Below are positions 5,675 through 48,360 of a stretch of DNA of 64,000 nucleotides, piece after piece. The position numbers and the translations under genes were made by a program. Source of the DNA: Chondrosia reniformis (Eukaryota > Porifera > Demospongiae > Chondrillida > Chondrillidae); NCBI GenBank assembly GCA_947172415.1, contig OX359192.1, positions 3,536,501 to 3,600,500 of the forward strand, in the 5' to 3' direction. Positions within the stretch are counted from its first letter, which is position 1; every line of letters begins with the position of its first letter. The notes beneath the pieces are model-generated. The model searched no databases and had not been told where the DNA came from. It was given only the letters and a program-made list of their open reading frames with translations.

Positions 5675-8436
5675 TAGTACATATAATTAGTACATACAAC
5701 TAGGACATAGAACTAGTACATAGAACGATTCCATAACACTTGAACGAGCCTAACTCTAACCCTAACCCTAGCAATAGTACATAGTAAATTACTAGCATAT
5801 ACAACTAGTAATTACAATTAGTACAGAAAACTGCCACATACAACTAGTACATATAACTAGTACATAAACCTAGTACATGCAACTAGTAAAAACAAGTAGT
5901 CCTTACAACTAGTACATACAACAATTACATACACCTAGTACATACAACTCTTACCTAGTATTGCTAGTTCTAGAACCTACAACAGTATAGTATCTAGAGC
6001 TAATACATACAACTGAAACATATAACTAGTACATATAACTAGTACATATACTTAGTACATACACATATCACTAGTACATATAAAGAGTACATACAACTAG
6101 TACATATAACTAGTACATATAACTGGTACCTCCAACTAGTACCTAAAAATAGTAAATATAACTTGTACTAGTACATTCAACTAGTACCTACAACTAGTAA
6201 ATGAAGCCAGTTCTAGTACATACAATTAGATCATAATACTTGAACATTAAACTAGTACATACAACTTGTTACTAGTATATACAATTAGTATATATAACTA
6301 GTACAATCAACAAGTACATACAACTAGTACATACAACTAGTAACTAAAGCTTGTATTTAAAACTACTACACACAACTATTACAAAAAACTAATACATACA
6401 CCTAGTACAAGAAACTAGTATATACACCTAGTACACACAACTAGTACATATACCTAGAACACACAAATACCACATATAACTAGCACATACACAAAAAACT
6501 AGTATATATAACGAGTAATAAAACTAGTACATAAACTTAGTTCATAAAACTACTACATACAACTAGTATATGCAAGTAGTACGTACGACCAGTAAATTTA
6601 ACTAGTACTGGTAAATAACCCTAGTACATACAACTAGTTCATACAATAAGTATATACAACTAGAACGTAAAACTAGTAGATACAACTAGTTTTATTCAAG
6701 TAATACTTAAAACTAGTACACACAACTAGTACATTAAACTAGGACTACAACTAGTACAAACAACTAGCACACACAATTTGTACTAGTACCTACAACTAGT
6801 ATATATAGCTAGTACATGCAACTAGTACATTCAAGTACTACTTACAACTAGTAAACACAACTAGTACATTAAACTTGTACTACTACTAATGCATACATAA
6901 AACTAGTATATACATACAACTAGTACATTCAACTAGTACATTAAAGTACTACTTACAACTAGTACATTTCAATAGTAAATATAACTTGTATTTGTACATT
7001 CAACTAGTACCTACAACTAGTAAATAAAACCAAAACTAATGCTAAAAACTGGTATTTAGAACTAGAGCGTACAACTAGTTACTAGTTCCTACAACTAGTT
7101 ACTCCTACATACAACTAGCTCATGCAACGAGTACATACAACTAGTAACAACAACTAGTAATTATAACTAGTACAAACAACAATTACACACAACTAGTACA
7201 TATAACTAATAAATGCAGCTAGTACATACAATTAGTGCATGCAACTATTACATACAACTAGTACATGCAACTCTAGAACACGCAACTACCACATATAACT
7301 AGCACATACAAATATAACAGGTACAAATAAATAGTGGATACAACTAGTACAAACAACTAGTACATACAACTAGTACAAAAAACTAGTATATCCAACTAGT
7401 ACTTATATCTAGTACCACAACAAGTGAATAAGCTAGTACATGGAACGATTCCATAACACTAGAACACAAAAATAAGTACATACAACTAGTACATAACTAG
7501 TACACACAACTAGTACATACAAATATATACAATGAGGTCATAAAAATACTGCATACAACTAGTACATACAAGTTGTACCCACAACTAGTAAATAAAACTA
7601 GTACTAGTACTTACACCTGGCACAAAAAATACTACGTAAAACTAGTACATACAACTAATACATACAACTAGTACATACAACTAGTACATACAAGTAAGTA
7701 CCTTCAACTAGTAAATATAACCAGTACTAGTACTTACAATAGTACATACAACTAGTATATATACCTAGAATATTCAACTAGTACATAAAACTAGTTATTA
7801 GTACATAAACTAGTCCATACAATTATTACACACAACTAATACATACAACTAGTTTCTACTACATACAACCAGTACAAACAACTATTACATACAACTAGTA
7901 CGTATAACTACTACATATCTAGTACACACAACTAGTACTACAACTAGTAAATAGAACTAGTACATAGAACGATTCCATAAAACTAGTATATACAACTAGG
8001 ACATATACCTAGTACATATCTAGTACATACAAGTAGTACATACAAGTAGAATATAATTTGTACACACAACTAGTATATACAAATACATACAATTTGTACA
8101 TAAAACTACTGTATACAACTAGTACATACACGCATACCTAGTAAATGTAAAAAGAACATACAACTAGTACATACATCTAGCGCTACAACTAGTGCATATA
8201 ACTAGTACACACACATATAAATAGAACATACAAATAGAAAATACAACTAGTACATAGAACTAGTACGTACAATTAGTACATACAACTAGTATCTAATACA
8301 TACAACTAGAACCTACAACTAGTACATAGCTAGTACATACAACTAGTATATACATACAACTAGTATATACATACAACTAGTACTTACAACTACTACAAAC
8401 AAGTAGTACATAAAATTCGTAGGTACAACTAGTTAA
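5675..8436 (+). repeat. 13-bp satellite block
   Basis: Degenerate ACTAGTACATACA array, 2.8 kb. The stretch 8127-8436 is a near-identical paralogue of 15487-15799, which dates the insertion at 8437 as later than that duplication. No gene is seen. Confidence 0.93.
5749..5771. repeat. Short interstitial telomere-like tract
   Basis: Inside the satellite there are about three and a half CCCTAA-type hexamers (CCTAACTCTAACCCTAACCC, then TAG), one of them mutated. CCCTAA is the canonical metazoan telomere repeat. The tract lies 75 bp right of the Tigger end. It could be an interstitial telomeric repeat from break repair, or chance drift of a satellite that already supplies CTA-rich words. It is too short to decide. 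Confidence 0.6.
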
Positions 8437-8438
8437 TC

Positions 8439-8460
8439 AGGGAGTACGGTAGTACTCCCT
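8439..8460. repeat. Small hairpin at the left end of the Helitron-like insert
   Basis: Arms AGGGAGTAC and GTACTCCCT pair perfectly over 9 bp around a 4-nt loop (GGTA). It starts two bases inside the proposed 5' end. Confidence 0.8.
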
Positions 8461-8950
8461 ATGTAGGGATGACACGGTTTTTTTCGTTTTCCCCATACAT
8501 TGGTATAGGAGCGAAATCCCGAAATAGGCCGAAAATCGACAAAACAAGGCTATGTATAGCTAAATATACAATATACATACTCTAAATAGACCTTAAAAGC
8601 AAGCGAATATGTCCCGCTGGCGAAATAATAAACTTTAAAAATTCCCATTTTCGTCTTCTTCATATTCTTCTTCTTCTTCTTATTCTTCGTCAGCCATAAC
8701 TAAAAAACTATATAAGCTTTTGGACTAATTGTTACACGAAACTACTGCAAATTTTCCGAGCTGTATTCTTTTGTAGAAGCGAGAGCGATAACGCTATTAT
8801 TGAGCATGGCGGTTTTCATGACCCTAGAGTCAAGGCCTCAATAAAGTCGCCATTTTAATGACGTCATAATCAGTCGAAGATTGCGAAACCAAAATGATTT
8901 TAATTATACGAATCTAATTCCTAGCCCATGCTCCATAAAAAGTAGAGAAA

Positions 8951-9193
8951 CTAGAAATATTAAAAATTTTCTACAAAAATAGTGAAGATGTAGGGATGGT
9001 ATAAAAAGTAGAGAAACAAGAAAGGGATGTTACACAGTGAAGCATTAGCTATACATGAATCCTACAAGCAAGGGTGTTGTATGATTCATGCACAGCTAAT
9101 GCTTCACTGTGTAACATCCCTTTCTTGTTTCTCTACTTTTTATACCATCCCTACATCTTCACTATTTTTGTAGAAAATTTTTAATATTTCTAG
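8951..9193. repeat. Perfect 100-bp-arm palindrome
   Basis: The left arm 8951-9050 and right arm 9094-9193 are exact reverse complements over 100 bp by direct reading. The 43-bp centre pairs further: CATGAATC with GATTCATG and TACAA with TTGTA, leaving a terminal loop of only about 9 nt. Both arms end in CTAG. Read alone it would be a foldback MITE with TA on both sides (8952-8953, 9191-9192). Because 9193 coincides with the end of the larger insert, I treat it as that element's 3' end. Identity of the arms implies recent formation or active correction. Confidence 0.92.
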
Positions 9194-9771
9194 TAAAATT
9201 AGTAACTAGTAAATATAAATGGTACATGCGACTAGTACACACAATTAGTACATACAACTAGTACATACAAATAGTGCATGCAACTAGTACATACAACTAG
9301 GACATATAACTAGTACATACACCTAGTTAATAGAACGAGTTCATAATACTAGAACATACAACTTGTATATACAACTTGTACATAGCAACTCGTATATATT
9401 TACAACTAGCACAAAAATAGGACATAAAATTCGTAGGTACAACTAGTTGATAAAATTAGTAAATAGTAAATATAATTAGTACATGCGACTAGTACATACA
9501 ACCAGTACAAACAACTAGTGCATGCAACTAGTACATACAATTAGGACATATAACTAGTACATACACCTACTACATATAACTAGTACATACACGTATATCT
9601 AGTAAATGTAAATAGTCCATACAACTAGTACATACAGCTAGCGCATACAACTAGTACATATAACTAGTACACACACATACGAATAGTATATACAAATAGT
9701 AAATACAACTAGTAAATACAACTAGTACATACAACTAGTATCTAGTACATACAACTAATACATACAACTAA
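9194..9771 (+). repeat. 13-bp satellite block
   Basis: Degenerate ACTAGTACATACA array between the Helitron-like insert and LINE copy A. It contains a second paralogue (about 9433-9480) of the sequence into which the 8437 element inserted. The last 15 bp are the left target duplication of LINE A. Confidence 0.92.
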
Positions 9772-12627: not shown

Positions 12628-14095
12628 AATACATACAACTAATACATAAAAATATAACTAGTTCAAATAAATAGTGCATCCACATAGTACATACAACGAG
12701 TACATAAAAATACAACTAATACATAAAAATATAACTAGTTCAAATAAATAGTGCATCCACATAGTACATACAACGAGTACATAAAACTAGTAAATCTAGT
12801 ACATACAACTAATATATATATAAAATTAGTACATTTAACTAGTACATACAACTACTACATACAACTAGTACATAAAATTAATAGGTACAACAAGTTCATA
12901 CAACTATTAACTAGTACATATAACTAGTACATGCGACTAGTACATACAACTAGTACATAAAACTAGTACATAAAACTAGTACATACAACTAGTTCATAAA
13001 ACTAGTATATAGCAAGTACAAAAAACTAGTGCATACATTTTGTACTTACAACGGGTTCATATCTAGTACATACAACTAGTACATATACCTAGTACATAGA
13101 CATATATATAGTACATATAAAAAGTACATACAACTAGTATACATAACTAGTACAAACACCCAGTACATACAAATGTAACGAGTACATATAAGTAGTACAT
13201 ACAACTAATGCATACAACTAGTACATATAAATAGTACATACAACTATTGCATACAACAATTAGACAAAACTGGTACACACAACTAGTACATATCACTAGT
13301 ACATACAACTAGTGTCTAGTATATACAACTATTACCTCCTAGTACCTAGCATAATTAGGACTAAAACCTACAACTAGTATATACTACTAGTACATGCAAC
13401 TAGTACATGCAACTAGTACATATAACTAGTACATATAACAATTACATATGACTAGTACATACACATACAACTAGTACATTAACATAGTACATACAACTAG
13501 TACAGAAAACTAGTTCACACAAACAAACAAGTAGGTCATAGAACTAGTTCATTCCTAGTACCTAGTATAACTTGTACTAGAACCTAAAACTAGTTCAAAC
13601 ATCTAGTACATACAACTAGTACATACAATTAGGCAATAGTACATTCAACTAGTACAAACAACTGGTACATATAAATAGTACATAAAACTAGTACATATAA
13701 CTAGTACATACAACAATTACACACTACTTATACATTCAACTAGTACAAATGAATACTACTTTCGACTAGTACATACAAATAGTATTGAGTACATACAACT
13801 AGTACATACAACTAGTGCATACAATTAGTACACACAAATAGTACATAAAGCCAGTAAATATAACTAGTACAAACTACCAGTACATAAAACTAGTACATAT
13901 AGCTGGTACATATAACTAGTACATATAAACAGTACATACAACTAGTCCTTAAAACCAGTTCATACAAATAGTACATGCAACAAGAATCAAGTACATACAA
14001 CTAGAAACCACCTAGTACATAGTATAAGTAGTACAAAAATCAACAACTGGTACATACACATAGTACATACAACTAGTACTTACAACTAGTACATA
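12628..14095 (+). repeat. 13-bp satellite block with higher-order structure
   Basis: Degenerate ACTAGTACATACA array. A local tandem copy of about 70 bp with a period near 76 bp occupies about 12641-12783. From about 13300 it forms the first copy of a ~2.9-kb higher-order repeat continued after the insert at 14096. No gene is seen. Confidence 0.92.
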
Positions 14096-14336
14096 CCAAG
14101 GATTCACAGAAGATCATGATAAAGAATAAGACAAAGACTCCCAGGAACACTGATGAAGGGTGGAATTCCCAGAAACGGCTGTCTGACCCAGTGGAGAAGA
14201 AGATGAAAGAAGGGAAAAGAAGGAAGAAAAGACTCCTGTATCTACATCTAAAGCTCTCTTTAGGTTTAGTTCCCCTATAGGCTCTTTTTACAGAATAGGC
14301 ATATAGCATGTAGGAAAATGGTATCTTAGATTTTTC
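14096..14336 (+). repeat. TATA/hammerhead repeat family, 241-bp copy
   Basis: This is the 3' part of the family seen at 44848, 51166 and 55134. It begins at the CCAAGG that lies 30 bp after the TATATAA of the longer copies, which is where transcription would be expected to start, and ends at TAGATTTTTC like the others. Paralogous satellite at about 17040-17090 and 22870-22905 lacks it, so it is a later insertion. The flanks allow at most a ~3-bp (TAC) target duplication. It carries a hammerhead-like core. No poly(A) tail and no long ORF are seen. The parent family is not identified; a Penelope-like or retrozyme-like origin is possible. Confidence 0.75.
14139..14196 (+). ncRNA. Hammerhead ribozyme-like motif, plus strand
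   Basis: CUGAUGA (14150-14156), a GGG/CCC stem, GAAAC, a GGCU loop and GUC (14181-14183) follow in hammerhead order. Stem III would be the 2-bp A-C/G-U type closed by GGCU. The 10.1/11.1 position of stem II is A opposite A instead of the usual G-C, and the inner stem I is weaker here than in the copies at 51.4 and 55.6 kb, so activity is doubtful. Confidence 0.55.
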
Positions 14337-17300
14337 TTACAACTTGAAACTAGTAACTAGTACATACCTAGTACATACAATTAGTACATAGAACTAGTTC
14401 AAACAATGAGAACATACAACTACTACATACACGTAGTACATACAACTAGTACATACAACTAGTACATACAACTAATAAATACAAATAGCACATACAACTA
14501 GTAGGATTACACACAATTGGTACATACAACTAGTACATACAATTAGTATCTAGTGCATACAACTAGCACCTCACTAGTACCTAATATAACTAGGACTTGA
14601 ACCCACAACAAGTACATACAAATAGTACATACAACTAGTACATACAACTACACTATACAACTATTAACTAGTACAGACAACTAGTACATGCAAATAGGAC
14701 ATACGAATCGTACTTGAAACTAATAAATAAAACTAGTACATACAACCACTTCTAACAACTAGTAACGAACGAGTACGCACAACATGTACATAAAACTAGT
14801 AAATAGTGCAATCAGCTAGGACATACAACTGGTACATACAACTAGGACATACAGCTGGTATTTACAACTAGGTCATATATACTTTATATAACAAGTACAT
14901 ACAAGTAGTTTCTAGTACATATAACTATATAGTACCTACCTAGTACCTAGTTTAACTAGTACTAGAACCTACAACTAGTACATACGACATGGTGCATACA
15001 ATTAGTACACACAAATAGTACATACAGCTAGTAAATATAACTAGTACATACTACTAGTCCAGACAACTAGGACAAACAACTAGGACATATAACTAGTACA
15101 TACATCTACTATATATAACTACTAAACACACATATACTTAGTTATCATGAATAGTACATACGACTAGTACATACAGCTAGTGTATACAACTAGTACATAT
15201 ACCTAGTACACAAACATATAACCAGTATATACACATATAACTGGCACTTATAAATAGTACATACACCTAGTACATAAACTTAGTACATACAACTAGTATA
15301 TAAGTAAAACTAGTACATTTAACGGGTACATACAACTGATATATACATACAACTAGTACATACAACTAGTACATAAAATTAGTGCATGCAACTAGTACAT
15401 ACAACTAGACATATAACTAGTACATACACCTACTACATATAACTAGACATATAACTAGTACATACACCTACTACATATAACTAGTACATACACGCATACC
15501 TAGTAAATGTAAAAAGAACATACAACTAGTACATACATCTAGCGCTACAACTAGTACATATAACTAGTACACACACATATAAATAGAACATACAAATAGA
15601 AAATACAACTAGTACATAGAACTAGTACGTACAATTAGTACATACAACTAGTATCTAATACATACAACTAGAACCTACAACTAGTACATAGCTAGTACAT
15701 ACAACTAGTATATACATACAACTAGTATATACATACAACTAGTACTTACAACTACTACAAACAAGTAGTACATAAAATTCGTAGGTACAACTAGTTCATA
15801 AAATTAGTAACTAGTAAATATAATTGGTACATGCGACTAGTACACACAATTAGTACATACAACTAGTACATACAAATAGTGCATGCAACTAGTACATACA
15901 ACTAGGACATATAACTAGTACATACACCTACTACATTTAACTAGTACATACACGTATACCTAGTAAATGGAAAGAGTACATACAACTAGTACATACAGCT
16001 AGCACTACAACTATTACATACAACCAGTACACACACATAAATAGAACATACAAATAGAAATACAACTAGTACGTAAAACTAGTTTGTACAACTAGTAGAC
16101 ACAACTAATATCTAGTACATACAACTAGAACCTATAACTAGTAAATGGCTAGTATATACAACTAGTATATACACACAACTAGTACATATAACTAATACAT
16201 ATAAATAGTACATACACGTATACCTAGTAAATGTAAATAGTGCATACAACTAGTAAATACAGCTAGCGCTACAACTAGTACATATAACTAGTACACACAC
16301 ATATAAATAGAACATACAACTAGTACATACAACTAGTATCTAGTACATACAACTAGAACCTACAACTAGTACATAGCTAGTATATACAACTAGTATATAC
16401 ATACAACTAGTACATAAAACAAATACACTTAACTAGTACATACAACCAGTGTCTAGTATTTACAACTAGTACCTCCCTAGTACCTAGTATAATTAGGTCC
16501 TGAATCTACAGCTAGTATATACTACTAGTACCTGCAACTAGTACATGCAACTAGTACATATAGCTATTACATATGACTAGTACATACACATATAATTAGT
16601 ACATAAATATAGTACATACAACTAGAACCTAAAACTAGTTCAAACATCTAGTACATACAACTAGTACATACAATTAGGCAATAGTACATACAAATAGTAC
16701 ATACAACTAGTACATACAAATAGTTCATACAACTAGCTCATATAACTAGTACATACAACAATTACACACTAGTTATACATTGAACTAGTACAACTAACTA
16801 CTACATTCGACTAGGACATACAAATAGTATTGAATACTAACAACTAGTACATACTACTAGTACATAAACTAGTACATATAACTGGTACATATAACTAGTA
16901 CATATAAACAGTACATAAAACTAGTTCTTAAAACTAATTCATACAACTAGCACATGCAACAAGTATCTAGTACATACAACTAGAACCCACCTATTACATA
17001 GCATAAGTAGTACAAAAATCAACAACTGGTACATATATAGTACATACAACTAGTACTTACAACTAGTACATATAGCTAGAAACTAGTAACTAGTACATAC
17101 CTAGTACATACAATTAGTACATAGAACTAGTTCAAACAATGAGAACATACAACTACTACATACACGTAGTACATACAACTAGTACATATAAATATTAAAT
17201 ACAAATAGTACATGCAGCTAGTCCATACAAGTTGTACATAAAACTAATACACACAACTAGTACCCAGAACTCCAACTTAAAACTAGTTCATATAACTAGT

Positions 17301-20247
17301 ACATAACTATTACATAAAAAGTATATACAACTAGTACATACATCTAGACTATACAACTATTAACTAGTACATACAACTAGTACATGCAAATAGGACATAC
17401 CAATCGTACTTGTAACTAATAAATACAACCAGTATCTACAACTAGTACATATAACTGGAACTAGTACATAAAACTAGTACACACAACTACTACTAACAAC
17501 TAGTAACCAGTACATACAACTAGTACATTGAACTAGTACGCACAACATGTACATGCAACTTGTACATACAATTAGTAGATAAAATTAGTACATATAACTA
17601 GTACATACAAAAAGTAACGAAAACATACAACTAGTACATTGAACTACTACACACAACTTGTACATAAAACTAGTAAATAGTACAATCCGGTAGGACATAC
17701 AACTGGTACATACAGCTAGGACATACAACTGATATATACAACTAGGTCATATAACTACTTTATATAACAAGTACATACAAGTAGTTTCTAGTAACTATAT
17801 AGTACCTACCTAGTACCTAGTTTAACTAGTACTAGAACCTACAACTAGTACATACAACTAGTGCATACAATTAGTACACACAAATATAACTAGTACATAC
17901 TACTAGTACATAAAACTAGTTCAGAAAACTAGTACATGCAACAAGTATCTAGTAGATACAAATAGAACCTACCTAGTACATAGTAACTAGTACAAGAATC
18001 AACAACTGGTACATACGCATAGTACACACAACTATTACTTACAACTAGTACATACAACTAGAAACTAGTAAATACTACTATAGTTCATAGAACAAGTACA
18101 TAATACTATATAGAACATACAACTTAAATATACATCTAGTACACAGCTAATATTAACAACTAGTTTATACATACAACTATTACGTACAACTGGTACATTA
18201 CTAGTACATACAAATAGTACATAGAACTAGTACATACCAAATAGTACACACACCTAGCACATAAAATTAGTACATACTACTCGTACATTCAACTAGTCCA
18301 TACAACTAGGACAAACAACTAGGACATGTAACTATTACATACACCTACTACATACAACTAGTACATACACATATACCTAATAATTATAAATAGTACATAC
18401 AACTAGTGGATAGAACGGGTACATAAATCTAGTACATACAACTAGACACTAGTCCAAACAACTAGTATATATATAACACTAGTACATTTAACTAGTGTAT
18501 AAAACTATTATATACATACAAAGAGTACATACAACTAGTACATACAATGAGCACATAGAGCTAGTACATACAAGTAGTACATATACCTAGTACACAAACA
18601 TACAAATAGTACATAGAACTAGTACATACCAAATAGTACACACACCTAGCACAGACAATTAGAACATACAACTAGTACATTCAACTAGGACAAACAACTA
18701 GGACATATAACTAGTACATAAATCTACTACATATAACTAGCAAATACACATATACATAGTAATTATGAATAGTACATACAACTAGTACATATAGCTAGTG
18801 CATACAACAAGTACATATGACTAGTTCACAAACATATTACCAGTAAATGCACATATAACTGGCACTTATAAATAGTACATACACATAGTACATACAATTA
18901 GAACATACAAATAGTACATACAATTATAAACTAGAACATAGAACTAGTTCATAGAACAAGTGCATAATACTAGATTGTCCTACTTGTATATACAAGTACT
19001 AGCATACTAGTTCAATGTACTAGTTGTATGTACTGGTTACTATTTGTTAGTAGTAGTTGTGTGTACTTGTTTTATGTACTAGTTCCAGTTATATATACTT
19101 GTTGTAGGTACTAGTTGTATTTATTAGCTACAAGTACGATTTGTATATCCTATTTGCATGTACTAGTATAGCTATTATTTATAACTAATATATATATATA
19201 CAACTACTACATACAACTGGTACGTAATTACTATATACAACTAGCACATACAAATAGAACAAACAATTAGTACATACACCTATTACATGCAACTTTTACA
19301 TACAGCTAGTACCTACAACTAGTAAATATAACTATGACTAGTACTTAAAACTAGTGAATACAACTAGTACATACAAATAGTACATACCAAATAGTACCCA
19401 CACCTAGTACACACAATTAGTACATACAACTAGTAATTTCAACTAGTCCATACAACTATGACCAACAGCTAGGACATATAAGTAATACATACACCTACTA
19501 CATATAACTAGTAAATACACATACCTTGTAATTATAAATAGTACATACCACTAGTACATACAACTAGTACATAGAACTAGTACATACAACTAGTACATAG
19601 AACTAGTACATACAACTAGTACATACAACTAGAAACTAGTACATAAACGTAGCTCACAGAATGAGTCCATAATACTAGAGCATAAAACTTGTATATTCAA
19701 CTAGTACATAACAACTACACACAAGTTTGAAAAACAACTAGCACATATAAATAGTACATAAACCTACTACATTTAACTTGTACATACACTTTTACCTAAT
19801 AATTTTAAATAGTACATACAACTAGTACAAACAACTAGTACATACAACTAGTATCTACTACATACAACTAGTACCTTCCTAGCACCTAGTATAACTAATA
19901 CAAGAACCTACCACTTGTACATACAACTAGTACATACCACTAGAACATACAACCAGTACATAGCTAGTACATACAACTAGTATATACATACAACTGGTAC
20001 ATAAAACTAGTACCTACAACTAGTACCTACAACTAGTAAATATAACTAGTACTAGTCCATACAACTAGTTCATCCAACTAGTACTTGCAATTTGTACATA
20101 TAACTAGTACACATATCTACCACATATAACTAATACATAAAAATATAACTAGTACATATAAATAGTAGATAAACATAGTACATCCAAGTAGTTCATATTA
20201 ACACCTACTGGTACATAGAACGAGTACATAAAACCAGGACCTATATC
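14337..20247 (+). repeat. 13-bp satellite block with ~2.9-kb higher-order repeat
   Basis: 5.9 kb of degenerate ACTAGTACATACA array. Landmark variants recur about 2.88 kb apart, for example TACCTAGTTTAACTAG at about 14945 and 17812, and the irregular cluster at about 13310 recurs at about 16450 (3.14 kb, or 2.9 kb once the 241-bp insert is subtracted). A third, partial relative begins near 22275. From about 18975 to 19165 the units are mostly in reverse orientation. No gene is seen. Confidence 0.92.
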
Positions 20248-20261: not shown

Positions 20262-21923
20262 TTTAGAAACAAAAGCCTTAATGGAGAACCTTGTTACTTC
20301 TTGCCTTAGTTTACTAAGGCAAGGAGTATCCGGCTTGGACAACCCTCAGTCAGTTATGTTTTCCTTTCTTTGGGTTTTTAGCCAGAAGCCTCGGCTTTGC
20401 CTCCTTCCGGCAGCAGCAGACAGGTGCACGTCGGGCCAAAGTTGACCGTCATAATTGGAGGGAGTACCTCCATACACAAATCCACCACTACTTTCCAGAG
20501 GTCGACAGGCAAGGACTGGGACAGGACTACTTATCGTCCAGGCCTGAATCCCTCAACAGATAGATGTCGCCTCAATATCCTTACAGCCGAGCAGAGAACA
20601 GTTCTCTGCATCCCTCTCATCACTTCTATTGCACTTTTTGACAGCTTTGGAATTCCACTTAGGTCTTCCAAGAGCGTGTCCACTGTCCCCAAAGCACCAA
20701 TTATCATCAGGACTACCTTAATTCGGTAGCCCCTAAATTGTTTCCTTATATCAGTCGCCAGCTTCTGGTACTTTTGGAACTTCTCTTGCCATCTTCCATT
20801 AATATTACTGTCAGTAGGAACTGACATCTCAATAATGAAGATGGACTTACATAGCCGATCCTCAACCAGTAAGTGTGGCCTTCCTTCTGTCATTTCATCA
20901 TCTGTAGGGATGCTAGGATCCCACAAGATTTTGACAGACCTATTCTCATAGATTGGTTTTGCTTCTAGTTTGTACCAGGGCTCTTCCTGCTTGAATCCAT
21001 ATTCTTTCAACAGTCTCCACAACACTATCAGTATTGCCCAGTCATGTCTCTCTTTGTAGAGAGAAAATCCCTTGGGCTAACACATGTTAAGAATGTGTTT
21101 GACCGTTTCCATAGCCTTGCCACATTCTCTGCACATTAGGAGACTAGAATTCTTCAGAATCCTATTTTGGTACCACCTAGTGTGCAGCACATCATCTTGG
21201 GCTGCGAGAATCAGAGCCTCAGTTTGAGGTCTGAGTCTCCCCTCAGAAAGCCACACATAAGACTCCCTATTTGTGACTTGTCTGTGGTATGAGCCCTGGT
21301 GAGACTTTTCGGCTAGGTTACTTTTTAACCTTTCAGTCTGAGCCTCCCGGAGCTCACGTGCCACTCTCCTCCATTCTCTTACACTATTTTGTGAGGGATC
21401 TGTCTTCAGCCACATTTCCAGTTCTAGTTCTATTCCATGGCTTCTCAGTATCAATCTGGCTTCTTTCAAGACAGTCCTCCTCTGCTTGAGCACTCCAGGT
21501 GTTTAACCACAACAGCTATGAGTGGATCATTGGCAGTATGGAGGTATCTTGCCAGATTCACAACAGCCCTATCGTGATCCAAAGGAAAACTACAGAGCCC
21601 TCTACCACCTTGAGAGCGAGGCAAATTCACTCTTTCAATGGCAGAGTTATAGTGGTGACACTGGTACTTTCTCATGATCTTTCTCACCATTCTGTCCAGT
21701 TTTGGAAGCTCACTTTGAGTCCACTTCAAAACTGGGTAAGAGTATCTCAATAGAGAGGCACACAACATGTTAGAGGCTTCTGCAGCATTCTTACCATTGA
21801 GGTGAGAGCCCCACACTTTGTGGAGTCTCCTCCTCAATTCATTGATCAAGCAAGCTTTGACCTTGCTGTCATCTACCTCAAACAGTTGTTCTAGCCCTAT
21901 GTACTTATAGGTAGTCCCTTTTT
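20262..21923 (-). mobile_element. RLE-type LINE copy B, 5'-truncated
   Basis: A 1.66-kb minus-strand copy of the copy A family, keeping only the thumb, CCHC knuckle, endonuclease and 3' end. A 14-bp target duplication flanks it. The truncation at the right end with an intact left (3') end is the usual product of incomplete target-primed reverse transcription. The 3' terminus is CTTTAGAAAC in plus orientation, shared with copies C and D. No A-tail is seen. Confidence 0.93.
20531..21912 (-). pseudogene. LINE B protein remnant: thumb, CCHC, RLE
   Basis: Three frames cover one ancestral protein. 21466-21933 holds the thumb region (WGSHLNGKNAAEASNMLCA); its Met and first residues come from the junction. 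21077-21493 holds the linker and CCHC knuckle (CRECGKAMETVKHILNMC) and ends in a premature stop just after the knuckle. 20531-21025 holds the endonuclease with the PD...IIEM pattern, although the Arg of RPD reads His-Leu nearby (GRPHLLVEDR), so the first catalytic Asp is replaced. A deletion of about 16 bp near 21500 relative to copy A shifts the frame between the first two pieces. Non-functional. Confidence 0.88.
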
Positions 21924-23122
21924 TAGTACACACCTACAACATATAATTAGTACATAAATATATAACTAGTACATATGAATAGTGCATCCATATAGTGTAT
22001 ATAACTAGTACATAAAACTAGTACATGCAACTAGAGACTAGTACATACAACTAATATGTACATAAAACTAGTACATATAACTAGTTCATACAACTATTAT
22101 ATTCAAACAACTAGTTCATACAGCTAGTATTTACAATTAGATTGTACAACTAGTTCACACAATGATTAACTAGTACATATAACCAGTACATGAAACTAGT
22201 ACATACAACTAGTACATACAACTACTTCATACAACTAGTATTTACAATTAGTACGTACAACTAGTTCATACAACTAGTGTCTAGTATATACAACTAGTAC
22301 CTCCCTAGCAGCTAGTATAATTAGGACTAGAACCTACTAATAGTATATACTACTAGTACATACAACTAGTAAATGCAACTAGTACATATAACTAGTACAT
22401 ATAACTATTACATATGCCTAGTACATACACATATAACTAGTACATAAATATAGTACACACAACTCGTACATACAACTAGTACATATAACTAGTACATGCA
22501 ACAATTACACACTACTTATACATTCAACTAGAACAAATGACTACCACATTCGACTAGTACATACAAATAGTATTGAGTACATACAACTAGTACATACAAC
22601 TAGTGCATACAATTAGTACATACAAATAGTACATACAGCTAGTAAATATAACTAGTACACACTATTAGTACATAAAATTAGTAAATGTAACTGGTACATA
22701 TGACTAGTACATATAAGCAGCACACACAACTAGTTCATAAAACTAGTTCATACAACTAGTATATACATGCAACAAGTATCTAGTACATACAACTAGAACC
22801 TACCTAGTATACAGTATAAGTAGTACAAGAAACAACAACTGGTACATACATATAGTTCATACAACTAATACTTTACAACTAGTACATACAACTAGAAACT
22901 AGTAACTAGTACATACCTAGTACATACAATTAGTGCATAGAACTAGTTCAAATAATAAGAACATACAACTACTAAACACACATAGTACATACTACTAGTA
23001 CTTAAAACTAGTTCATATAACTAGTATATACAATTAGTACATAGAACTAGTTCAAACAATTAGAACATACAACTACTACATACACCTAGTATATACAATT
23101 TGTACATACAATTAGTACATAC
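21924..23122 (+). repeat. 13-bp satellite block
   Basis: Degenerate ACTAGTACATACA array starting with the right target duplication of LINE B. About 22275-23100 is a paralogue of 13300-14450 and 16430-17200 and carries the empty site for the 14096 insertion. No gene is seen. Confidence 0.92.
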
Positions 23123-23525
23123 AATGATCAGAAATAATCACTGGAACGTATTACGCCATACCAGCCAAGTGACCGAAGTCTGATCTTGGCTGGGGGACCG
23201 AAGTCCTATTAAGTTGGCAACCAGTGATCGCCTCCCAGTCATCCAAAGATGGAAAAAAATTCATCAAAGAACCACAGACAGCTGTTTCACCCTCATTTGG
23301 GCTCATCAGTGTGGTACACTTCAATGATGGTAAATTGGATGACTGCCCTCACTTATAAATCCACCACAAGTGAAACACTTGTGGTTTCATTTTAAGTGAG
23401 GATGGAGGCTACAGTCTAAGTGAGACTGAGCACTCACAATGACAAAGGGAGTTAATTGCTCTAAGCCTGTGCAAAGGCTAAAATGATCAGAAATAATCAC
23501 TGGAACGTATTACGCCATACCAACC
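23123..23525 (-). repeat. Retrozyme-like unit with terminal direct repeats and a hammerhead ribozyme
   Basis: A non-satellite block bounded by direct repeats of about 44 bp with one mismatch: 23123-23166 and 23482-23525, both starting AATGATCAGAAATAATCACT. This spacing makes it one complete 359-bp unit plus 44 bp of the next, as expected from a fragment of a tandem array or from a circular template. Near the left end CCAGCCAAG and CTTGGCTGG can pair (23161-23193) and GACCGAAGTC occurs twice. The minus strand contains a complete hammerhead. No ORF is present. Size, tandem layout and ribozyme match what is known of small non-autonomous hammerhead retroelements of animals; family membership is inferred. 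Confidence 0.75.
23261..23327 (-). ncRNA. Hammerhead ribozyme, type I, minimal stem III
   Basis: On the minus strand the order is stem I 5' strand, CUGAUGA, stem II, GAAA, stem III, GUC, stem I 3' strand. Stem I pairs ACCACA with UGUGGU, then after a small UGU/U internal loop pairs nine more positions (UCAUUGAAG with CUUUGAUGA, two of them G-U). Stem II is G-CCC with GGG-U around AAAUGA. Stem III is A-C with G-U around AGCU. All conserved core bases are present (CUGAUGA and GAAA). Predicted self-cleavage is after the C at 23277. This architecture, open stem I with a 2-bp stem III, is that of the retroelement-associated hammerheads. Confidence 0.88.
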
Positions 23526-24750
23526 TAGTACCTAGTATAAACTAGAACTTACAGCTAGTATTTACAACTAGTATATACAACTAGTCCATATAAATGGTGC
23601 ATACAACTGGTACATACAACTAGTACATATAACTAGTACAAACAACTAGTATATACGCCTAGTTCACACAACTACTAAATATAACTAGTATATACACATA
23701 TACATAGTACATACAAATAGAACAAACAGCTAGTACATACAACTTGTACCCACCTAGTAACCACTATAACTAGTACTAGAACCTATAACTATTCAATGCA
23801 GCTAGTACATACAACTACTACATATACATATTACATACACATATAACTAGTACACACAACTACTACATAAAACTAGTCCATACACAGGGAACTAGTACAT
23901 ATAAATAGTATATACAACTAGAACATAAACTAGAACATACAACTAGCACATTGAACTAGTACATACAACTAGAACCTATCTAATACCTAGTACAACTAGT
24001 ACTAGAACCTACAACTAGTACTTACAACTAGTAAATACAACGAGTATCGAGTACATACTAGTACATACAACTAGTACAAACAAGTAGTACATACAACTAG
24101 TACATACAACTAGTACATACAACTAGTACCCACCTAGCACCTAGTATAACTAGTACTATAACGTTCAACTAATACTTACAACTAGTACACACAACTAGTA
24201 CATAAAACTAGTAAACACAACTGCAACAAAAACTAATTCATACACAGGTAACTAGTACATATAAATAGTGTATGCAACTAGAACATAAACTAGAACTACA
24301 ACTAGTACATACAACTAGTATACATCTAGTATATACATCTAGAGTTCATACAACTAGTACACACCACTAGTACATTCACCAAGTATATACAACTAATCCA
24401 TTAACTAGTACATATACTTAATACATACAACAAGTACATATAACTAGAACTAGTAACTAGTATATACAACTGGTACATTCAACCAATACATATAACTAGA
24501 AAACACAACTAAATAGAGCATACAACAAGTTACTCTTACTTACCATTAGTGCACACAACTGGAACATAAAACTTCAACCTACAACAAGGAAATATTACTA
24601 GTACCTGCAACTAGCAAACATAATTAGTACTAGTACTTACATCTAGTACACACAACTAGTACATACAACTACTGCATGCAACTAGAACACACAACTAGTA
24701 CATAAGACATACAATTAATGTATACAATTAGCACCTACAACTAGTACACT
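23526..24750 (+). repeat. 13-bp satellite block
   Basis: Degenerate ACTAGTACATACA array with several CCTAGTACCTAGTATAAC-type variant clusters that recur in other blocks. No gene is seen. Confidence 0.92.
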
Positions 24751-24754
24751 GGTA

Positions 24755-24970
24755 CCTTATGGCTGTTCCTTAGGGATAGGCTGCCTTATAGCGATCAACA
24801 CGTAACAAGCGCTAATTAATAAGGAATTTTCGATTTCAATTGTTAAGAGTGAATGCGTTATTTAGTGTTATCGGTTACACACCGGAAGGAATTTAAAACC
24901 GTCCATTGTTAAATTGGTTATAGCATCCTTTGGCTTAATTGATTTACGTATCGTATATATTCTACGTACA
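24755..24970. other. Unique insert, unrecognised
   Basis: About 216 bp that does not follow the 13-bp period and has no relative elsewhere in the window. It begins soon after GGTACC and ends at TTTCGTATCTTCAACGAGTG, which is again a satellite variant (compare 33487 and 35238). It has no significant ORF and no terminal repeat I can see. Confidence 0.6.
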
Positions 24971-26505
24971 TTTCGTATCTTCAACGAGTGAATATAAAAT
25001 ATACTAGTGCAGAAAACTAGTACATATTACTGGTTCATACAACTAGTACATCCAACCAGACTATGCAATTAGTACATACAATTAGTAAATAGTACATAAA
25101 ACTAGTATATACATATAACTAGTACATACAAGTAGTACCTACAACTTGTTAATATTACCAGTACCTACAACTAGTGCCTACAACTTGTACACACAACTAG
25201 TACGTAAAACTAGTACATACATTTAGAAGGTACAACTAGAACTTATAACTAGTAACTTATACATATAACTAGGACATATAACTAGTACATAAAAATAGTA
25301 CATGCAACCAGAACATACAACTAGTACATACAACTAGTAAGTAGTACATTCAACTAGTTCATATAACTAGTACATAAAAGTAGTACATTCAACTCTTTAA
25401 TTTTACCAGTAATAGTACCTACAACTAGTTCATACAACTAGTACATAAATAGTGCATAAAACTAGTTAATACAACTAGCACGAACAACTACAACATAACT
25501 GGTACATACAACTAGTATATACAACTAGAACATAGAATTGGTACATACACCTATTACATTAAACCTGTACATACAACTTTTACCTACAACTAGTAAATAA
25601 ACCTGGTACAAGTACATAAAACTAGTATATATTACTAGTTCATACAACTAGTAAATATAACTACTTAATATAACTAGTACAATCAACTAGTCCAAAAACT
25701 AGTTCATACAACTAGTACATACATTTAGTATCTTCCACGAGTAAATATAACTAGTACTAGTTCATACAACTAGTACATACAACTAGTACATAACACTAGC
25801 AACAAGTACATACTATAACTCACAACTAGTACATAAAACTACTTCATACAACTGGTACATATAACTATAACTTACAACTAGTACATACGACTAGTATCTA
25901 CAAGTAGTACATAAAACTAGACCTAAAATTAGTACATACAACTAGTACACACAAGTACTGCATATAACTAGTACATATAACCAGTACATACACATATAAC
26001 TAGTATATATAAATAGTACATACACTTAGTATATATAACTAGGACATACAAGCAATATTTGCAACTAGTACACGCAACCAGTGCACACAACTAGCTAGAA
26101 ACTAGTACATGCAACTACTACATAGAAAGAGATTATAAAACTCATGAATACAACTAGTACGAACAACAAGACACTAGTACATACAGCTAGTTCATAGAAA
26201 GTGAACATAAAACTACCACATAAAACTAGTATATAGAACTAGTACACAGCTAGGACATACAAGTAATATATACATAGAACCAGTATATACAATTCGTACA
26301 TACAACTACTACATGCAACTACAACATACAACTATTAAGTATACCTAATAATAGTACATACAACTAGTACATAAAACTAGTACATACTCCTAGTCCATAA
26401 AATTAGTACATACAACTAATACACATAAGTACTGCATATAAATAGTACATATAACTAGTACATACACATATAACTAGTATATATGAATAGTACATACACC
26501 TAGTA
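24971..26505 (+). repeat. 13-bp satellite block
   Basis: Degenerate ACTAGTACATACA array. About 25960-26290 is a paralogue of about 31500-31800. The last 12 bp (26494-26505) are the probable left target duplication of LINE C. Confidence 0.92.
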
Positions 26506-26775
26506 TACTTTAGAAACAAAAGCCTTAATGGAGAACTTGTTACTTCCTGCCTTAGTTTACTAAGGCTATGAGTGTCTGGCTTGGACAACCCTCAGTCCAT
26601 TATGTTTTCCCTTCTTCGGGTTTTTAGCCAGAAGCCTCGGCTTCGCTCCTTCCGGCAGCAGCACACAGGTGCACGTCGGGCCAAAGTTGACCGTCATAAT
26701 AGGCGGGAGTACCTCCATACACAAATCCACCACTGCTTTCCAGAGGTCGACAGGCAAGGAATGGGACAGGACTAC

Positions 26776-27748
26776 TTATCGTCCAGGCCCCAATCCCTCA
26801 ACAGACTGATGTCGCCTCAATATCCTCACAGCCGTAGAGAGAACAGTTCTCCGCATGGCTCTCATCACTTCTACTGCACTTTTTGACAGCTTTGGAATTC
26901 CCCTAAGGTCTTCCAGGAGCATCTCCACTGTCCCAAAAGCACCAATTATCATCAGGACTACCTTAATTCGGTAGCCCCTAAATTGTTTCCTCATATCAGC
27001 CGCCAGCTTCTGGTACTTTTGGAACTTCTCTTGCCATCTTCCATTAATATTGCTGTCAGTAGGAACTGACATCTCAATAATGAAGATGGACTTACATAGC
27101 CGATCCTCAACCACTAAGTCTGGCCTTCTTTCTGTCATTTCTTTATCTGTAGGGATGCTAGGATCCCACAAGATTTTGACAGACCTATTCTCATAGACTG
27201 GTTTTGCTTCTAGTTTGTACCAGGGCTCTTCCTGCTTGAATCCATATTCTTTCAACAATCTCCACAATACTATCAGTATTGCCCGGTCATGTCTCTCTTT
27301 GTAGAGAGAAAATCCCTTGGGCTAACACATGTTTAGTATGTGTTTGACCGTTTCCATAGCCTTGCCACATTCTCTGCACATTAGGAGACTAGAATTCCTC
27401 AGAATCCTATTTCGGTACCACCTAGTGTGCAACACATCATCTTGGGCTGCAAGAATCAGAGCCTCAGTTTGAGGTCTGAGTCTCCCCTCAGAAAGCCACA
27501 CATAAGACTCCCTATTTGTGACTTGTCTGTGGTATGAGCCCTGGTGAGACTTTTCGGCTAGGTTACTTTTTAACCTTTCTAGTCTGAGCCTCCCGGAGCT
27601 CACGCCCCACTCTCCTCCATTCTCTTACACTATTTTGTGAGGGATCTGTCCTTAGCCCCATTTCCGGTTCTAGTTCTATTCCATGGCTTCCCAGTATCAA
27701 TCTGGCTTCTTTCAAGACAGTCCTCCTCTGCTTGAGCACTCCAGCCAC
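26776..27748 (-). pseudogene. LINE C: connection, CCHC knuckle and RLE endonuclease
   Basis: Three frames. 27563-27748 holds the connection after the thumb. 27322-27603 carries the knuckle CRECGKAMETVKHILNMC. 26776-27267 carries the endonuclease with RRPDLVVEDR, IIEMSVP and EKFQKYQKL, so all three catalytic positions are kept. The break after the knuckle is a premature stop at the same place as in copy B (the codon after Cys is a stop in both, but Glu in A and D), which suggests B and C share a recent ancestor. Confidence 0.88.
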
Positions 27749-29308
27749 TTTTGGTGTTTAACCACAACAGCTGTGAGTGGATCATTGGCAGTATGGAGGT
27801 ATCTTGCCAGATTCACAAGAGCCCTGTCGTGATCCAAAGGAAAACTACACAGCCCTCTACCACCTTGAGAGAGAGGCAAGTTTAGTCTCTCAATGGCAGA
27901 GTTATAGTGATGACACTGGTACTTTCTAATGATCTTTCTCACCATTCGGTACAGTTTTGGAAGCTAACTTTGTGTCCACTTAAAAACTGGGTAAGAGTAT
28001 CTCAATAGAGAGGCACACAACATGTTAGAGGCTTCTGCAGCATTCTTACCATTGAGGTGAGAGCCCCACACTCTGTGGTGTCTCTTCCTCGATTTGTTGA
28101 TCAAGCAAGCTTTGACCTTGCTGTCATCTACCTCAAATTGTTGTTCTAGCCCTAGGTACTTATAAGTAGTACCTTTTTCAAGGCCCCTTAAGGATTCTTC
28201 ACTGCGTTCAGGGTTGTCTGGGACAGCCAGAACCTTCCCCTTTTGCATATGAGCTGTTCCACACTTTCTAGCTCCAAACTTCATGCCAATGGCATTTGAG
28301 GTTTTCTCCACACATTCCATGGCTTCCCTGTGTTTATCAGGCCCTCCAGCATATATCTTAAGGTCATCCATGTACAACAAGTGTGACATGGTGTTCCTTT
28401 CCCCATTATGCCAGAGGGTATATCCCTTGGTTCTGTTAAGAACTTGGGATATAGGAGCTATGGCCAGACAAAAGAGGAGTGGCGATAAGGAGTCTCCTTG
28501 GAAGAGTCCCCTGTTATATATAACAGGGGTGCTCCTAACCACCTTCCCCGCAGTCCTCAACTCAAGCACAGTAGCCCAGTGTTTGGAGAAAACTCTATAG
28601 ACCTCTGGATCCAACCTGGGCACTTGATGGTTTTTAGCACCTTCATCACCCACTTGTGAGGGACTCTGTCATATGCCTTCTCATAATCGATCGATGCCAC
28701 ACTAAGTGGCTTGCCCATAATTTTGACATCTAGACCGATTCATTGATCCAGCAGTAGACAGTCCACACAGCCCCACTTCCCTTTCCTCATGGCTCGTTGA
28801 GCCATAGGTAAAAGATCATTAGTGTAGGTGTAAGTGAGTAGTTCTGATGCAATGTATGCTGTGACAGCCTTGTACATTATGTTGAGACACGCAATAGGTT
28901 GGTAGTTGGCCGCACTTTTCATGTCACCTTTTTGGGGATGAGTAGAGTGCGAACTCTTGTAAGCCAGTCTGGGACTGACAGATCTCCGCTCACCACCCTC
29001 CATAGTACATCTGCCAAGGCAGACTGTGCAGAGGGGAGTGCTTTCCACCAGAAAGTGTGGATGCCATCCGGCCCAGGGGCTGACCAGCTCTGTGCCTTTT
29101 TCAAGGCTTTCCTCAGTTTGGTCTCATCAATGCTATTGGGACCTTCAGAGGGGGTTCTACCCACCCTCTTTTTGGTTTCCTTTAGCCATTCTTTTGCCCC
29201 TGGGTCGTCTTTGTTGACCTTACGAACAGTACTTACAATCTTTGTCAAAACGTCTCTGACTACCTCAATTGAGGGAGCTTCATTGGAGGTTGGAATATTG
29301 CCATTCAT
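27712..29308 (-). pseudogene. LINE C reverse transcriptase domain
   Basis: The reverse transcriptase copies element RNA at the nicked target. Its motifs are spread over several frames. 28919-29308 has APGPDGIHTFWWKALP and RVRTLLIPKK (motifs 0-1). 28740-29048 has YQPIACLNIMYK (motif 2). 27964-28653 has GLFQGDSLSPLLFCLAIAPI and LLYMDDLKIY, the palm motifs with the catalytic YMDD. 27712-27945 is the thumb. Between 28653 and 28740 another frame reads KPLSVASIDYEKAYD-like residues (motif A region) on the minus strand. The GLFQGDSLSPLLF and YMDD signatures are those of the R2/R4/Dong group. At least three frame breaks and one in-frame stop (near 27966) are visible against copy A. Confidence 0.88.
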
Positions 29309-40734: not shown

Positions 40735-40915
40735 TCGTGACGTAACGTAACCCAGTGAAGCTGCCAGACGGGGGGTTAGCCCATACTGGCAAGGAGGCTG
40801 ATTTAGCCACAGGATGCCACATAAAGGGCTAAGCACCCTGCTCCGTCGAGGGGTTGAACTGGACAATACCCATCCTCTTGTCAGCACAGAACCACAGCCT
40901 CCCATTCCCATGACA
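40735..40915 (-). other. 5' leader of LINE copy D
   Basis: Matches the leader of copy A nearly base for base, including the GGAGGCTG and CAGCCTCC words and GGCTAAAT. Its outer edge (minus strand starting near TGTCATGGGAATG) agrees with that of copy A to within a few bases, so this is the true 5' end of the element. Confidence 0.75.
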
Positions 40916-43900: not shown

Positions 43901-44847
43901 ACAGATAGTTACTAGTGCACACAACTAGTACATACAGATAGTTACTAGTGCATACAACTAATACATACAACTTCTACATACAACTAGTACATAAAACTAG
44001 AACATACAACTAGTACATACAACTAGTATATACAACTAGTTACTAGGACATACAACTAGTACATAAAATTAGTACATAACACTAGTAACTACAACTAGTA
44101 AATATAAGTAGTATGTACATCAATTACACACAACTTGTACATTCAACTAGTACATATAATTACAAAAAACTAGTACATAAACCTAGTACATACAATTAGT
44201 AACTACAACTAGTAAATATCACTATTATATACGTACAACAATTTCACACAGCTAGCACAAATAACTAGTACATATAACTACATATGATTAGTAAATACAA
44301 CTAGTAAATAAGGTTTGTTACTGGTACATTTAGCTAGTACATACAACTAGTTCATACAACTAGTACATAAAACTACATACTAGTTCATACAACTAGTACA
44401 TACAATTAGTACATACAGCTAGTACATACAACAACTACATACAACGAGTACAGACAACTAGAACATACAACTAGTACGTACAACAAGTAGGTACAACTAG
44501 TACACACAACTAGTACATACAATTAGTATATACAGCTAATACATACAACTAGTACATACAACTAGTACATATAACTAGTACATACATCTTGTTACCAGAA
44601 CATTCAACTAGTACATAAAACTTGTAACTACAACTAGTAACTACAACTAGTAAATATAACTAGTACGTACAACAATTACACACAATAAGTACATACAACT
44701 AGTACATATAACTACATACAACTTCTACATACAACTAGTACATAAAACTAGTACATACAACTAGTAAATACAGATTGTTATTAGTCCATACACCTAGTAC
44801 ATACAAGTAGTACATATAATTAGTACATACAGCTGGTACATACAACT
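40916..44847 (+). repeat. 13-bp satellite block, higher-order type with CAATTACACAC variants
   Basis: 3.9 kb of array built from a longer recurring phrase. The variant ACAACAATTACACAC appears near 42170, 42505, 42732, 43030, 43265, 44115 and 44668, and the variant CAGATTGTTACTAG near 41750, 42585, 42822, 43315 and 44770. Spacing is irregular, 230-550 bp. No gene is seen. Confidence 0.92.
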
Positions 44848-45101
44848 AGTAGCTAGCATGCTTAAGGACTGTTTGTGTTGCCCCATATTGTGTTACCCCT
44901 CCTCCAAAGGAATGTTACTACTATAAGACCTAAGGATACACTTATGGAATATGTCCTACTTGTGTCTATGGTTATGCTGAATCTGTTTTACCTGTACAAG
45001 CAAGATTACTAATAGATTAAATTCATAAAATTTAATTTGACTTACATTCCTTTCATAAAATTAAACTTCATCATGTGTCTTAACTTAATGTAACTTAATT
45101 A
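44848..45101 (+). repeat. TATA/hammerhead repeat family, 5' part only
   Basis: Matches 55243-55490 (TTAAGGACTGT, CCTCCAAAGGAATGTTA, GGTTATGCTGAATCTGTTTT and so on). The sequence stops at TTAATTAAC, before the TATA box and ribozyme of the longer copies, and joins LINE sequence directly. It therefore marks the left breakpoint of the segmental duplication that follows. Confidence 0.8.
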
Positions 45102-45187
45102 ACCTGCGAGGCACCAGTGGAATCACCTATTCTGGTTGACCCAGGGTTTTCTTCACCACTGGTGCACCTAGGCCACAGCCTGTCTAA
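45102..45187 (-). mobile_element. 86-bp fragment of the RLE-type LINE
   Basis: Corresponds to the right edge of LINE C (30574-30655) including its unusual 5' junction CCTGTCTAATTGTATATACA, but keeps the 11 bp that C lacks near 30604. It was carried here by the segmental duplication, not inserted by retrotransposition. Confidence 0.88.
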
Positions 45188-48100: not shown

Positions 48101-48360
48101 AACTAGTACATACATATAGTACCTACAAATATTAAATATACCTGGTACCACTACATACAACTGGTACATACAACTAGTACCTATGACTAGTAAGTAAAAC
48201 TAGCACTAGTACATGCAACTAGAACATACAATTGGCACATACAGCTAGTAAGTAGTACATATAACTAGTAAATACATCTAGTATATAAAACTAGTACATA
48301 CAACTATTAATTACAAGTAATACATACAACTAATAACTAAACCTAGGAAATAGAAGTTGT
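45188..48360 (+). repeat. 13-bp satellite block, duplicate of 30656-33190
   Basis: 45188-47716 follows 30656-33190 unit by unit. Beyond 47717 the collinearity stops. From the ACTAGT at 47753 to that at 47828 the units are reversed, as at 35645-35754. No gene is seen. Confidence 0.92.

Follow-up and report, generated by a model that had tools for sequence, protein, structure and literature searches.

Insertions of a hammerhead retrozyme in the genome of the sponge Chondrosia reniformis are laid out like Penelope elements

The window analysed here, a 64,000-nt stretch of the genome of the demosponge Chondrosia reniformis (contig OX359192.1, positions 3,536,501 to 3,600,500), carries on its minus strand a hammerhead ribozyme inside a 359-bp unit. 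Judged by its relatives across the genome, this unit is a retrozyme, i.e. a non-autonomous mobile element dispersed as single, tandem and inverted copies. The element is ordinary in kind and informative in anatomy. How its copies end is new, and their Penelope-type insertion anatomy is visible only when copies are compared. This non-LTR (long terminal repeat) retrozyme quite probably uses Penelope-type reverse transcription, a reading in which we infer both the enzyme and a circular RNA template.

Genome searches covered 117.4 Mb in 15 contigs. The unit gave at least 127 DNA matches, a lower bound as 40 of 1146 candidates were scored. Dispersed copies and some tandem arrays were both found, contrary to the first half of the condition under which the initial annotation would have given up its proposal of a mobile element. 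Exact hammerhead cores of the searched pattern numbered 198 (reversed pattern, 0) and a word from the tail of the unit occurred at 464 places with at most one mismatch (reversed word, 0), about the first 100 places of each listing being shown. Arrays of four full units plus partials, with no open reading frame (ORF) between units, were present at two loci (L005 and L021), and at least two full units in 10 of the 44 independent loci defined below. A search with the Rfam model RF00163 returned 73 matches at E ≤ 10; at this threshold 11 of 14 control genomes also matched, none over the cut-off. A second family, its units 354–355 bp long as compared to 359/361 bp in the first family, accounts for many of the 73 (22 of the 24 places read resembled it). 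Apart from the hammerhead, in which they are alike (43 nt, 86%), the two families have no convincing match. Among the first 100 of the 198 cores, additional hammerheads with other loops, e.g. CCCTAAAGAGGG and TCCTAATATGGA, suggest more retrozyme families.

The ends of the copies were examined on the sense strand of the unit, which is the minus strand of the window (sense position p is 23484 minus the plus-strand coordinate). A set of 48 loci, chosen as the best hits to the window unit or to locus L013 together with the solitary-tail loci L080, L083 and L084, was mapped, and removal of four segmental duplicates judged by common flanks (L010, L011, L026 and L074) left 44 independent loci. Repeats of places counted elsewhere (L001, L002, L004 and L008) and short remnants (L081, L082 and L085) were also set aside. 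Outer ends were classed as T (position 36–50, i.e. ~44) or E (within 12 of the unit end, i.e. ~359/361). Both ends were fixed in 27 of the 44 loci (25 T/E and 2 E/E), one end in 16 and neither in one. In the T/E loci one flank borders position ~44 and the opposite flank the unit end, i.e. ends 44 nt apart, with head-to-head arms and a variable inner junction. Both orientations were present in 31 loci, a count independent of the end classes.

Direct duplications of at least 8 bp flanked 20 of the 27 two-ended loci as compared to 25 of 702 mismatched left/right pairs. They measured 12–13 bp in 15 of the 20 and were 72% A+T. Length was taken as the longest exact match in a stretch reaching from 16 nt outside to 6 nt inside each end; one or two bases of the element may therefore be counted in. 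In L089, a paralogue of the L061 site without the insertion contained a single copy of the duplicated 12-mer. No poly-A tail was observed at the fixed ends of retrozyme copies. Inner junctions within 8 nt of the cleavage site numbered 3 of 62 (positions 200, 210 and 212). A cluster at unit positions 1–6 (14 of 62) was left unused because short leftovers that span the unit boundary escape a query of one unit, and another at 325–333 (10 of 62) may reflect the shortest arm detectable by BLAST. The second family, read fully at one locus (L038) and partly by eye, exhibited ends 50 nt apart, inverted arms and a 12-bp duplication; two further loci (L036 and L039) were mapped partly.

Variants shared within an insertion were then compared, leaving out overlapping hits and segments of <84% identity. 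Opposite arms of one insertion shared 6.3 derived substitutions per kb (77 segment pairs) and same-orientation units 3.9 (65 pairs), as compared to 0.69 between different insertions (3737 pairs). Among 150 testable private variants (i.e. at positions covered at least twice in the locus), 23 occurred in two or more segments and 13 across opposite arms; at position 304 of L006 a private base was present in all five segments, in both arms. In addition, 79 segments crossed the cleavage site unbroken, indicating that their templates were uncleaved or religated at this site. Shared variants and unbroken segments fit several laps of one small circle. The shared variants may alternatively stem from a multimer transcribed by run-off from a homogeneous array, or from gene conversion at a later time. 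In L005 (C11:3075028-3078408, units at 430–2167) private variants alternate, units 2 and 4 carrying one at position 297 and units 3 and 5 one at position 185. A dimeric template could have produced this pattern, as could recombination between units.

Penelope elements of the same genome were examined for the same plan. A 713-amino-acid ORF at L030 matched the RVT_1 reverse transcriptase (RT) domain with 39.8 bits (cut-off 29.6) and GIY-YIG with 22.5 bits, just under the cut-off of 22.6. L088 is nearly identical to L030, the L022 protein is 41% identical to it, and in both L088 and L022 the coding sequence is spread over more than one frame. By eye, the order in all three is repeat, ~35-nt tail, inverted 3' arm, coding sequence, fixed 3' end and repeat, with target duplications of 12 bp (L030), 11 bp (L088) and ~13 bp (L022). 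The plan was thus found in three of six Penelope loci, representing two lineages, indicating that retrozymes and Penelopes of this genome have a common unusual insertion plan without common sequence. A descriptor for minimal hammerheads, in which stem III has no loop, gave matches close to the 3' ends of the Penelopes in L022, L029, L030 and L088. At L022 (C4:4467400-4477300) the Penelope (6010–9270) has 760-nt inverted arms, a tail and minimal hammerheads and lies ~0.8 kb from a retrozyme; its ends, tail and duplication are its own, and no retrozyme unit or tail was found within it. Penelope-like coding sequence occurred in three of 20 long retrozyme loci, i.e. L022 and, at 3–4 kb, L028 and L019.

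Several candidate connections were rejected. A 37-nt tail match at L030 was considered as a common 3' end of the type found in LINE/SINE pairs (long and short interspersed nuclear elements); flanks and duplication show that the Penelope had inserted in a retrozyme remnant. It entered a strongly truncated retrozyme exactly where the tail ends (L030 sense 1312–1400, C12:805500-810000, duplication AACTCCCTTTTA), by chance or through target preference. Six solitary tails (L080–L085), considered as an autonomous partner, proved to be retrozymes, remnants or tail-like fragments. In L089, a core resembling that of a hammerhead close to the GIY-YIG ORF was dropped, since the surrounding stretch is lysine-rich and may be coding and since Rfam did not list the core at E ≤ 1. 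In L087 (1–2444, C2:5826900-5831000) and L089 (C9:3484700-3487400) GIY-YIG stands ahead of an RT-like part, the RT being assigned by eye and Pfam listing GIY-YIG only; we take this lineage to resemble 'Naiad' elements. The L087 lineage adjoins about nine ~250-bp tandem copies resembling a repeated exon plus intron, and exons of this kind recur in L014 and L021. Outside retrozyme units, further matches to minimal hammerheads of Penelope type were observed at L020 1866 (-), L021 833 (+) and L060 60 (+).

The layout of the window copy is given below (minus strand except for the minisatellite, which is given without strand).

23125–23483, minus: complete 359-bp retrozyme unit, matched across the genome and in head-to-tail copies at 359-bp spacing in other loci
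23484–23527, minus: 3' 44 bp (sense ~316–359) of the preceding, 5'-truncated unit; left end of the window copy in sense orientation
23261–23327, minus: type I hammerhead ribozyme with extended two-part stem I, from RF00163, the descriptor with shuffles, and pairing in 24 distinct copies
23303–23309, minus: catalytic core CUGAUGA in the RF00163 alignment, columns invariant but for the variable fifth base
23289–23302, minus: stem II, four pairs with a hexaloop, from the fold and the copy alignment
23278–23288, minus: GAA core and 2-bp stem III with AGCU tetraloop, from the RF00163 alignment
23276–23277, minus: predicted self-cleavage site, after C at 23277, position taken from the RF00163 alignment
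23440–23483, minus: 'tail', sense 1–44, a predicted hairpin then GCAAUUAACUCCCUUU; its end (position ~44) is a fixed outer end in complete insertions
23125–23130, minus: 'E' end, sense position 359 (...UGAUCA), the second fixed outer end, abutting the minisatellite directly in the window copy
21960–23124: host minisatellite, 13-bp unit ATACAACTAGTAC, unrelated to the retrozyme unit, from repeat analysis
23540–26466: host minisatellite, other flank, from repeat analysis

The block was correctly delimited in the initial annotation as one 359-bp unit plus 44 bp of the next; the E end is kept at 23125 and the copy is cut short in the preceding unit at ~23527. As no inverted arm, T end or clear target duplication was present in it, the window copy is a poor witness of mobility and its siblings are good ones. 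The earlier view of the unit as part of the surrounding satellite found no support: the unit is an insertion in an unrelated 13-bp minisatellite, and a 7.5-kb tract around it (window region 20862–28304) is 98% identical to a tract on C6 (L026, C6:4358200-4368100) with the same junctions. On this comparison the window copy is a truncated remnant whose surrounding tract was later duplicated. Degenerate 13-bp minisatellite (ACTAGTACATACA) fills much of the window (e.g. 12827–20197 and 40913–51126), with up to ~795 copies per array. Coding capacity of the block is limited to three overlapping ORFs of at least 40 amino acids, the longest of 57, and no RT/GIY-YIG ORF was present in this ORF check. 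The unit has a GC content of 44%; with two majority bases introduced, its circular minimum free energy (MFE) was -126.5 kcal/mol (z -6.9 as compared to 100 shuffles) and 62% of its bases were paired in the predicted fold.

The element at 23261–23327 was confirmed as a type I hammerhead. RF00163 (Hammerhead_1) aligned over its full length (1–45) with 23271–23315 (-) at 29.8 bits and E 1.9e-5 in 441 bases searched. This score is below the curated gathering cut-off of 34 bits, and a whole-window Rfam scan at gathering cut-offs listed nothing. The covariance-model search proposed at the outset was nevertheless passed by siblings: in a scan of ten sources (eight retrozyme loci and two Penelope loci) 13 matches, every one from the eight retrozyme loci, exceeded 34 bits (34.6 in 12 cases, 35.9 in one). 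The Rfam alignment of the window copy contains CUGANGA, GAA, a U-H cleavage site and three helices of which stem I is the open one, so that every conserved core base predicted on the minus strand is present. Stem I, predicted to pair over 15 positions in two parts, has 9+6 pairs in the fold. The four positions of stem II do pair, the first as a G·U wobble in the window copy and as G-C in most first-family copies. The predicted 2-bp stem III, with its AGCU loop and C 23277 as cleavage base, is present in the Rfam alignment and absent from the predicted MFE fold (-22.6 kcal/mol, z -3.19, 1 of 200 shuffles as good), which keeps stems I and II and pairs the core CUG with CAG in place of stem III. 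The hammerhead fold had an energy of -16.4 kcal/mol in the window copy and of -18.7 in a sibling with an MFE of -23.9, so that in both copies the predicted optimum is a fold other than the active one.

A descriptor (CTGANGA, GAAA, stem II ≥3, stem III ≥2 and stem I ≥5) matched this single site in the 64 kb and nothing in 200 dinucleotide shuffles. Across 24 distinct sequences of 26 aligned hammerheads, 96.2% of helix cells were paired and 14 were two-sided, values of which neither was reached in 500 shuffles. Two-sided pairs (three, reached in 179 of 500 shuffles) and pair types (10, reached in 357 of 500) were not above shuffles; as changes mostly separate the two families, few independent compensatory events are represented. 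Variation in the helices is consistent with selection on pairing, short of proof.

A mechanism can be proposed in outline. (Papers are cited by PubMed Central number, here and below.) By analogy with known retrozymes (PMC7229834), array transcripts would self-cleave and ligate into circles of ~359 nt. A Penelope-like RT/endonuclease would bind the tail, as suggested by the insertion plan and by PMC11167929, and would cut an AT-rich target on both strands, ~12 bp apart. Each target 3' end would prime cDNA at one of two neighbouring internal sites (~44 or ~359), and the two cDNAs would run round the template, often for more than one lap, before joining head to head. The window copy would be a truncated descendant, its tract having been duplicated later. 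The closest experimental parallel is a green anole Penelope-like element that in vitro cuts and extends both strands and starts RT at two adjacent internal sites, the interval between these starts being the 30–40-bp 'tail' of genomic Penelope copies (PMC11167929). Insertion in that system does not need hammerhead cleavage (PMC11167929). The ribozyme may accordingly serve to make a compact, independent template and not to insert it.

A number of observations weigh against Penelope-type insertion of a circular template. Hammerhead cleavage being dispensable in vitro, the cleaved circle need not be the template; 127 of the 150 testable private variants occurred in one segment only, and gene conversion could spread variants between arms. 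Seventeen of the 44 loci, the window copy included, lack two fixed ends; seven of the 27 two-ended loci lack a duplication of at least 8 bp; two of the 27 are E/E; and the head-to-head order is itself part of the end classification. The choice of loci by best hits leaves old copies under-represented. The tail hairpin of a second subfamily (B) is predicted to be weak and different. Among the Penelopes, L029 has inverted arms without a visible tail, reading of L087 and L089 gave no defined ends, and no Rfam hammerhead came near the cut-off in Penelope loci (best 22.1 bits in L087, on the other strand than its ORF, and 20.2 in L022). The searches turned up no autonomous Penelope that has this unit or tail, and since the L030 Penelope sits at the end of a retrozyme remnant, its tail match is nesting and not homology. 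Among the matches listed (38 for GIY-YIG and 58 places for the unit, the L022 Penelope being unlisted) the nearest pair lay 9.8 kb apart, which also counts against the first of the alternatives below.

As an alternative to an independent retrozyme, the unit could serve as pseudo-LTR in an autonomous, Penelope-like element; copies with an ORF would then be rare, lost or unfound, and the short ones would be 5'-truncated or solo pseudo-LTRs. This would account for an insertion plan identical to that of Penelope copies, here and in print (PMC11167929, PMC3846280), for the presence of hammerheads in Penelope pseudo-LTRs (PMC7229834, PMC7761336 and the descriptor matches in this genome) and for the Penelope-like coding sequence near retrozymes in L022, L028 and L019. 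Nevertheless, the first of these Penelopes is a separate insertion without retrozyme unit or tail, and tblastn of the L030, L087 and L089 ORFs against 85 sources located no other Penelope RT region beside a unit, the matches of the L087 query in L014 and L021 being to its repeated-exon part. The ORF-less arrays at L005 and L021 also argue against a pseudo-LTR, as do the Penelope hammerheads, which are minimal and without a looped helix III where the retrozyme has a 2-bp, tetraloop-capped stem III. We consider this explanation unlikely.

Mobilisation of a SINE-like element by an ordinary LINE, via target-primed reverse transcription with inversions from twin priming, is less probable again. LINE machinery can also yield inverted 5' parts and ~12-bp duplications, and in these respects retrozyme insertions resemble its products. 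The 15-bp target-site duplications (TSDs) of Nematostella hammerhead repeats have been likened to LINE mobilisation (PMC4918200), and LINEs are among the possible movers in a 2024 review (PMC11722881). The fixed ends of the retrozyme, however, lack poly-A tails, and Penelope copies in the same genome display the retrozyme pattern. Furthermore, both outer ends are fixed, 44 nt apart, in 25 of the 27 two-ended loci, whereas LINE twin priming uses variable internal sites. A satellite-type repeat whose hammerhead has no role, amplified through unequal exchange or via extrachromosomal circles of DNA, would explain the tandem arrays and the duplication of the tract holding the window copy. This reading is very improbable and already largely refuted by the fixed ends of the copies and their target-site duplications; copies are short and dispersed, one site has an unfilled paralogue, and the helices remain paired despite variation.

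The element resembles the metazoan non-LTR retrozymes described in PMC7229834, i.e. in its type I hammerhead with a 2-bp, tetraloop-capped helix III (there in axolotl and invertebrate forms), its unit length (170–400 nt there, 359 here), its low GC and highly self-paired RNA, its occurrence as monomers to multimers, its target duplications (>4 bp there, at least 8 bp in most two-ended loci here) and its co-occurrence with Penelope elements. Carriage of the hammerhead in units of 150–450 bp, absence of coding capacity and a GC content below 45–50% are likewise shared with this class. Pairing of published retrozyme RNAs exceeds 70% of bases (PMC4918200), as compared to the 62% predicted here. 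The published elements have no LTR, PBS or PPT motifs (PMC7229834). Head-to-head inverted arms and fixed ends 44 nt apart are undescribed in the accessible main text of PMC7229834, where the word 'inverted' does not occur. The present system differs also in that circular RNA is deduced and that the host uses mitochondrial code 4; COX1 on C15 (17,451 bp) reads with this code, with TGA as Trp, AGA/AGG at Arg and ATA at Ile positions. Such a reading excludes tunicates and most bilaterians by their codes, and the NLR-like genes mentioned below suggest a demosponge host.

With Penelope and Poseidon elements (PMC11167929, PMC3846280) the retrozyme has in common a hammerhead, a tail between two ends, inverted arms and tandem or partial-tandem copies. 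TSDs are ~8–13 bp in those elements (e.g. inverted pLTRs (pseudo-LTRs), a 31-bp tail and 8–10-bp TSDs in Adineta Penelopes; PMC3846280), with a mode of 12–13 bp in the retrozyme, and the Penelope tail of 30–40 nt compares with 44 nt here (50 in the second family). Unlike Penelope elements, the retrozyme unit has no RT/GIY-YIG ORF and has a looped two-base-pair stem III, whereas Penelope hammerheads are of the minimal type with a loopless stem III (PMC7761336). Plant LTR retrozymes are also non-autonomous, hammerhead-bearing and modelled on circular RNA; they differ in a type III hammerhead, LTRs, 4-bp duplications and circles of 600–800 nt (PMC4918200, PMC7229834). By description, the newt satellite and the Schistosoma Sm-alpha repeats are also alike in being few-hundred-bp repeats with a type I hammerhead (PMC7229834, PMC6155905).

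Diverged retrozyme remnants were also observed, by eye, in apparent introns of paralogous NLR-like genes (L081 and L082, C1:2027400-2028300 and 2097500-2098300). These host genes encode the nucleotide-binding motif GxxGxGKTTL, and the L081 junction occurs at three places on C1 between 2.03 and 2.18 Mb.

As the enzyme source that mobilises animal retrozymes, Penelope elements have already been proposed from shared hammerheads, tandem copies and co-occurrence, as 'likely candidates' in PMC7761336; retrozymes 'may rely on PLEs' (Penelope-like elements) according to PMC8969392, and LINEs or Penelope elements are named as possible movers in PMC11722881. In the literature found, as far as its text was accessible and with subscription papers outside its scope, neither an argument for Penelope mobilisation from insertion anatomy nor a paper linking retrozymes with Porifera was met. 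The insertions add a different kind of evidence, as the mark they bear is that left, in a purified Penelope system, by two adjacent internal RT start sites (PMC11167929). Which enzyme moves animal retrozymes thereby becomes a matter for a defined test with short RNAs and one protein. It is conceivable, and we put it forward tentatively at somewhat below even chances, that animal retrozymes in general are parasites of Penelope-like elements, inserting by dual-site priming on one small circular RNA, with both cut strands of the target primed on this circle at neighbouring sites and extended round it before head-to-head joining. If this is true, the inserted DNA would record rolling-circle reverse transcription, and the missing enzyme of animal retrozymes would be identified by class.
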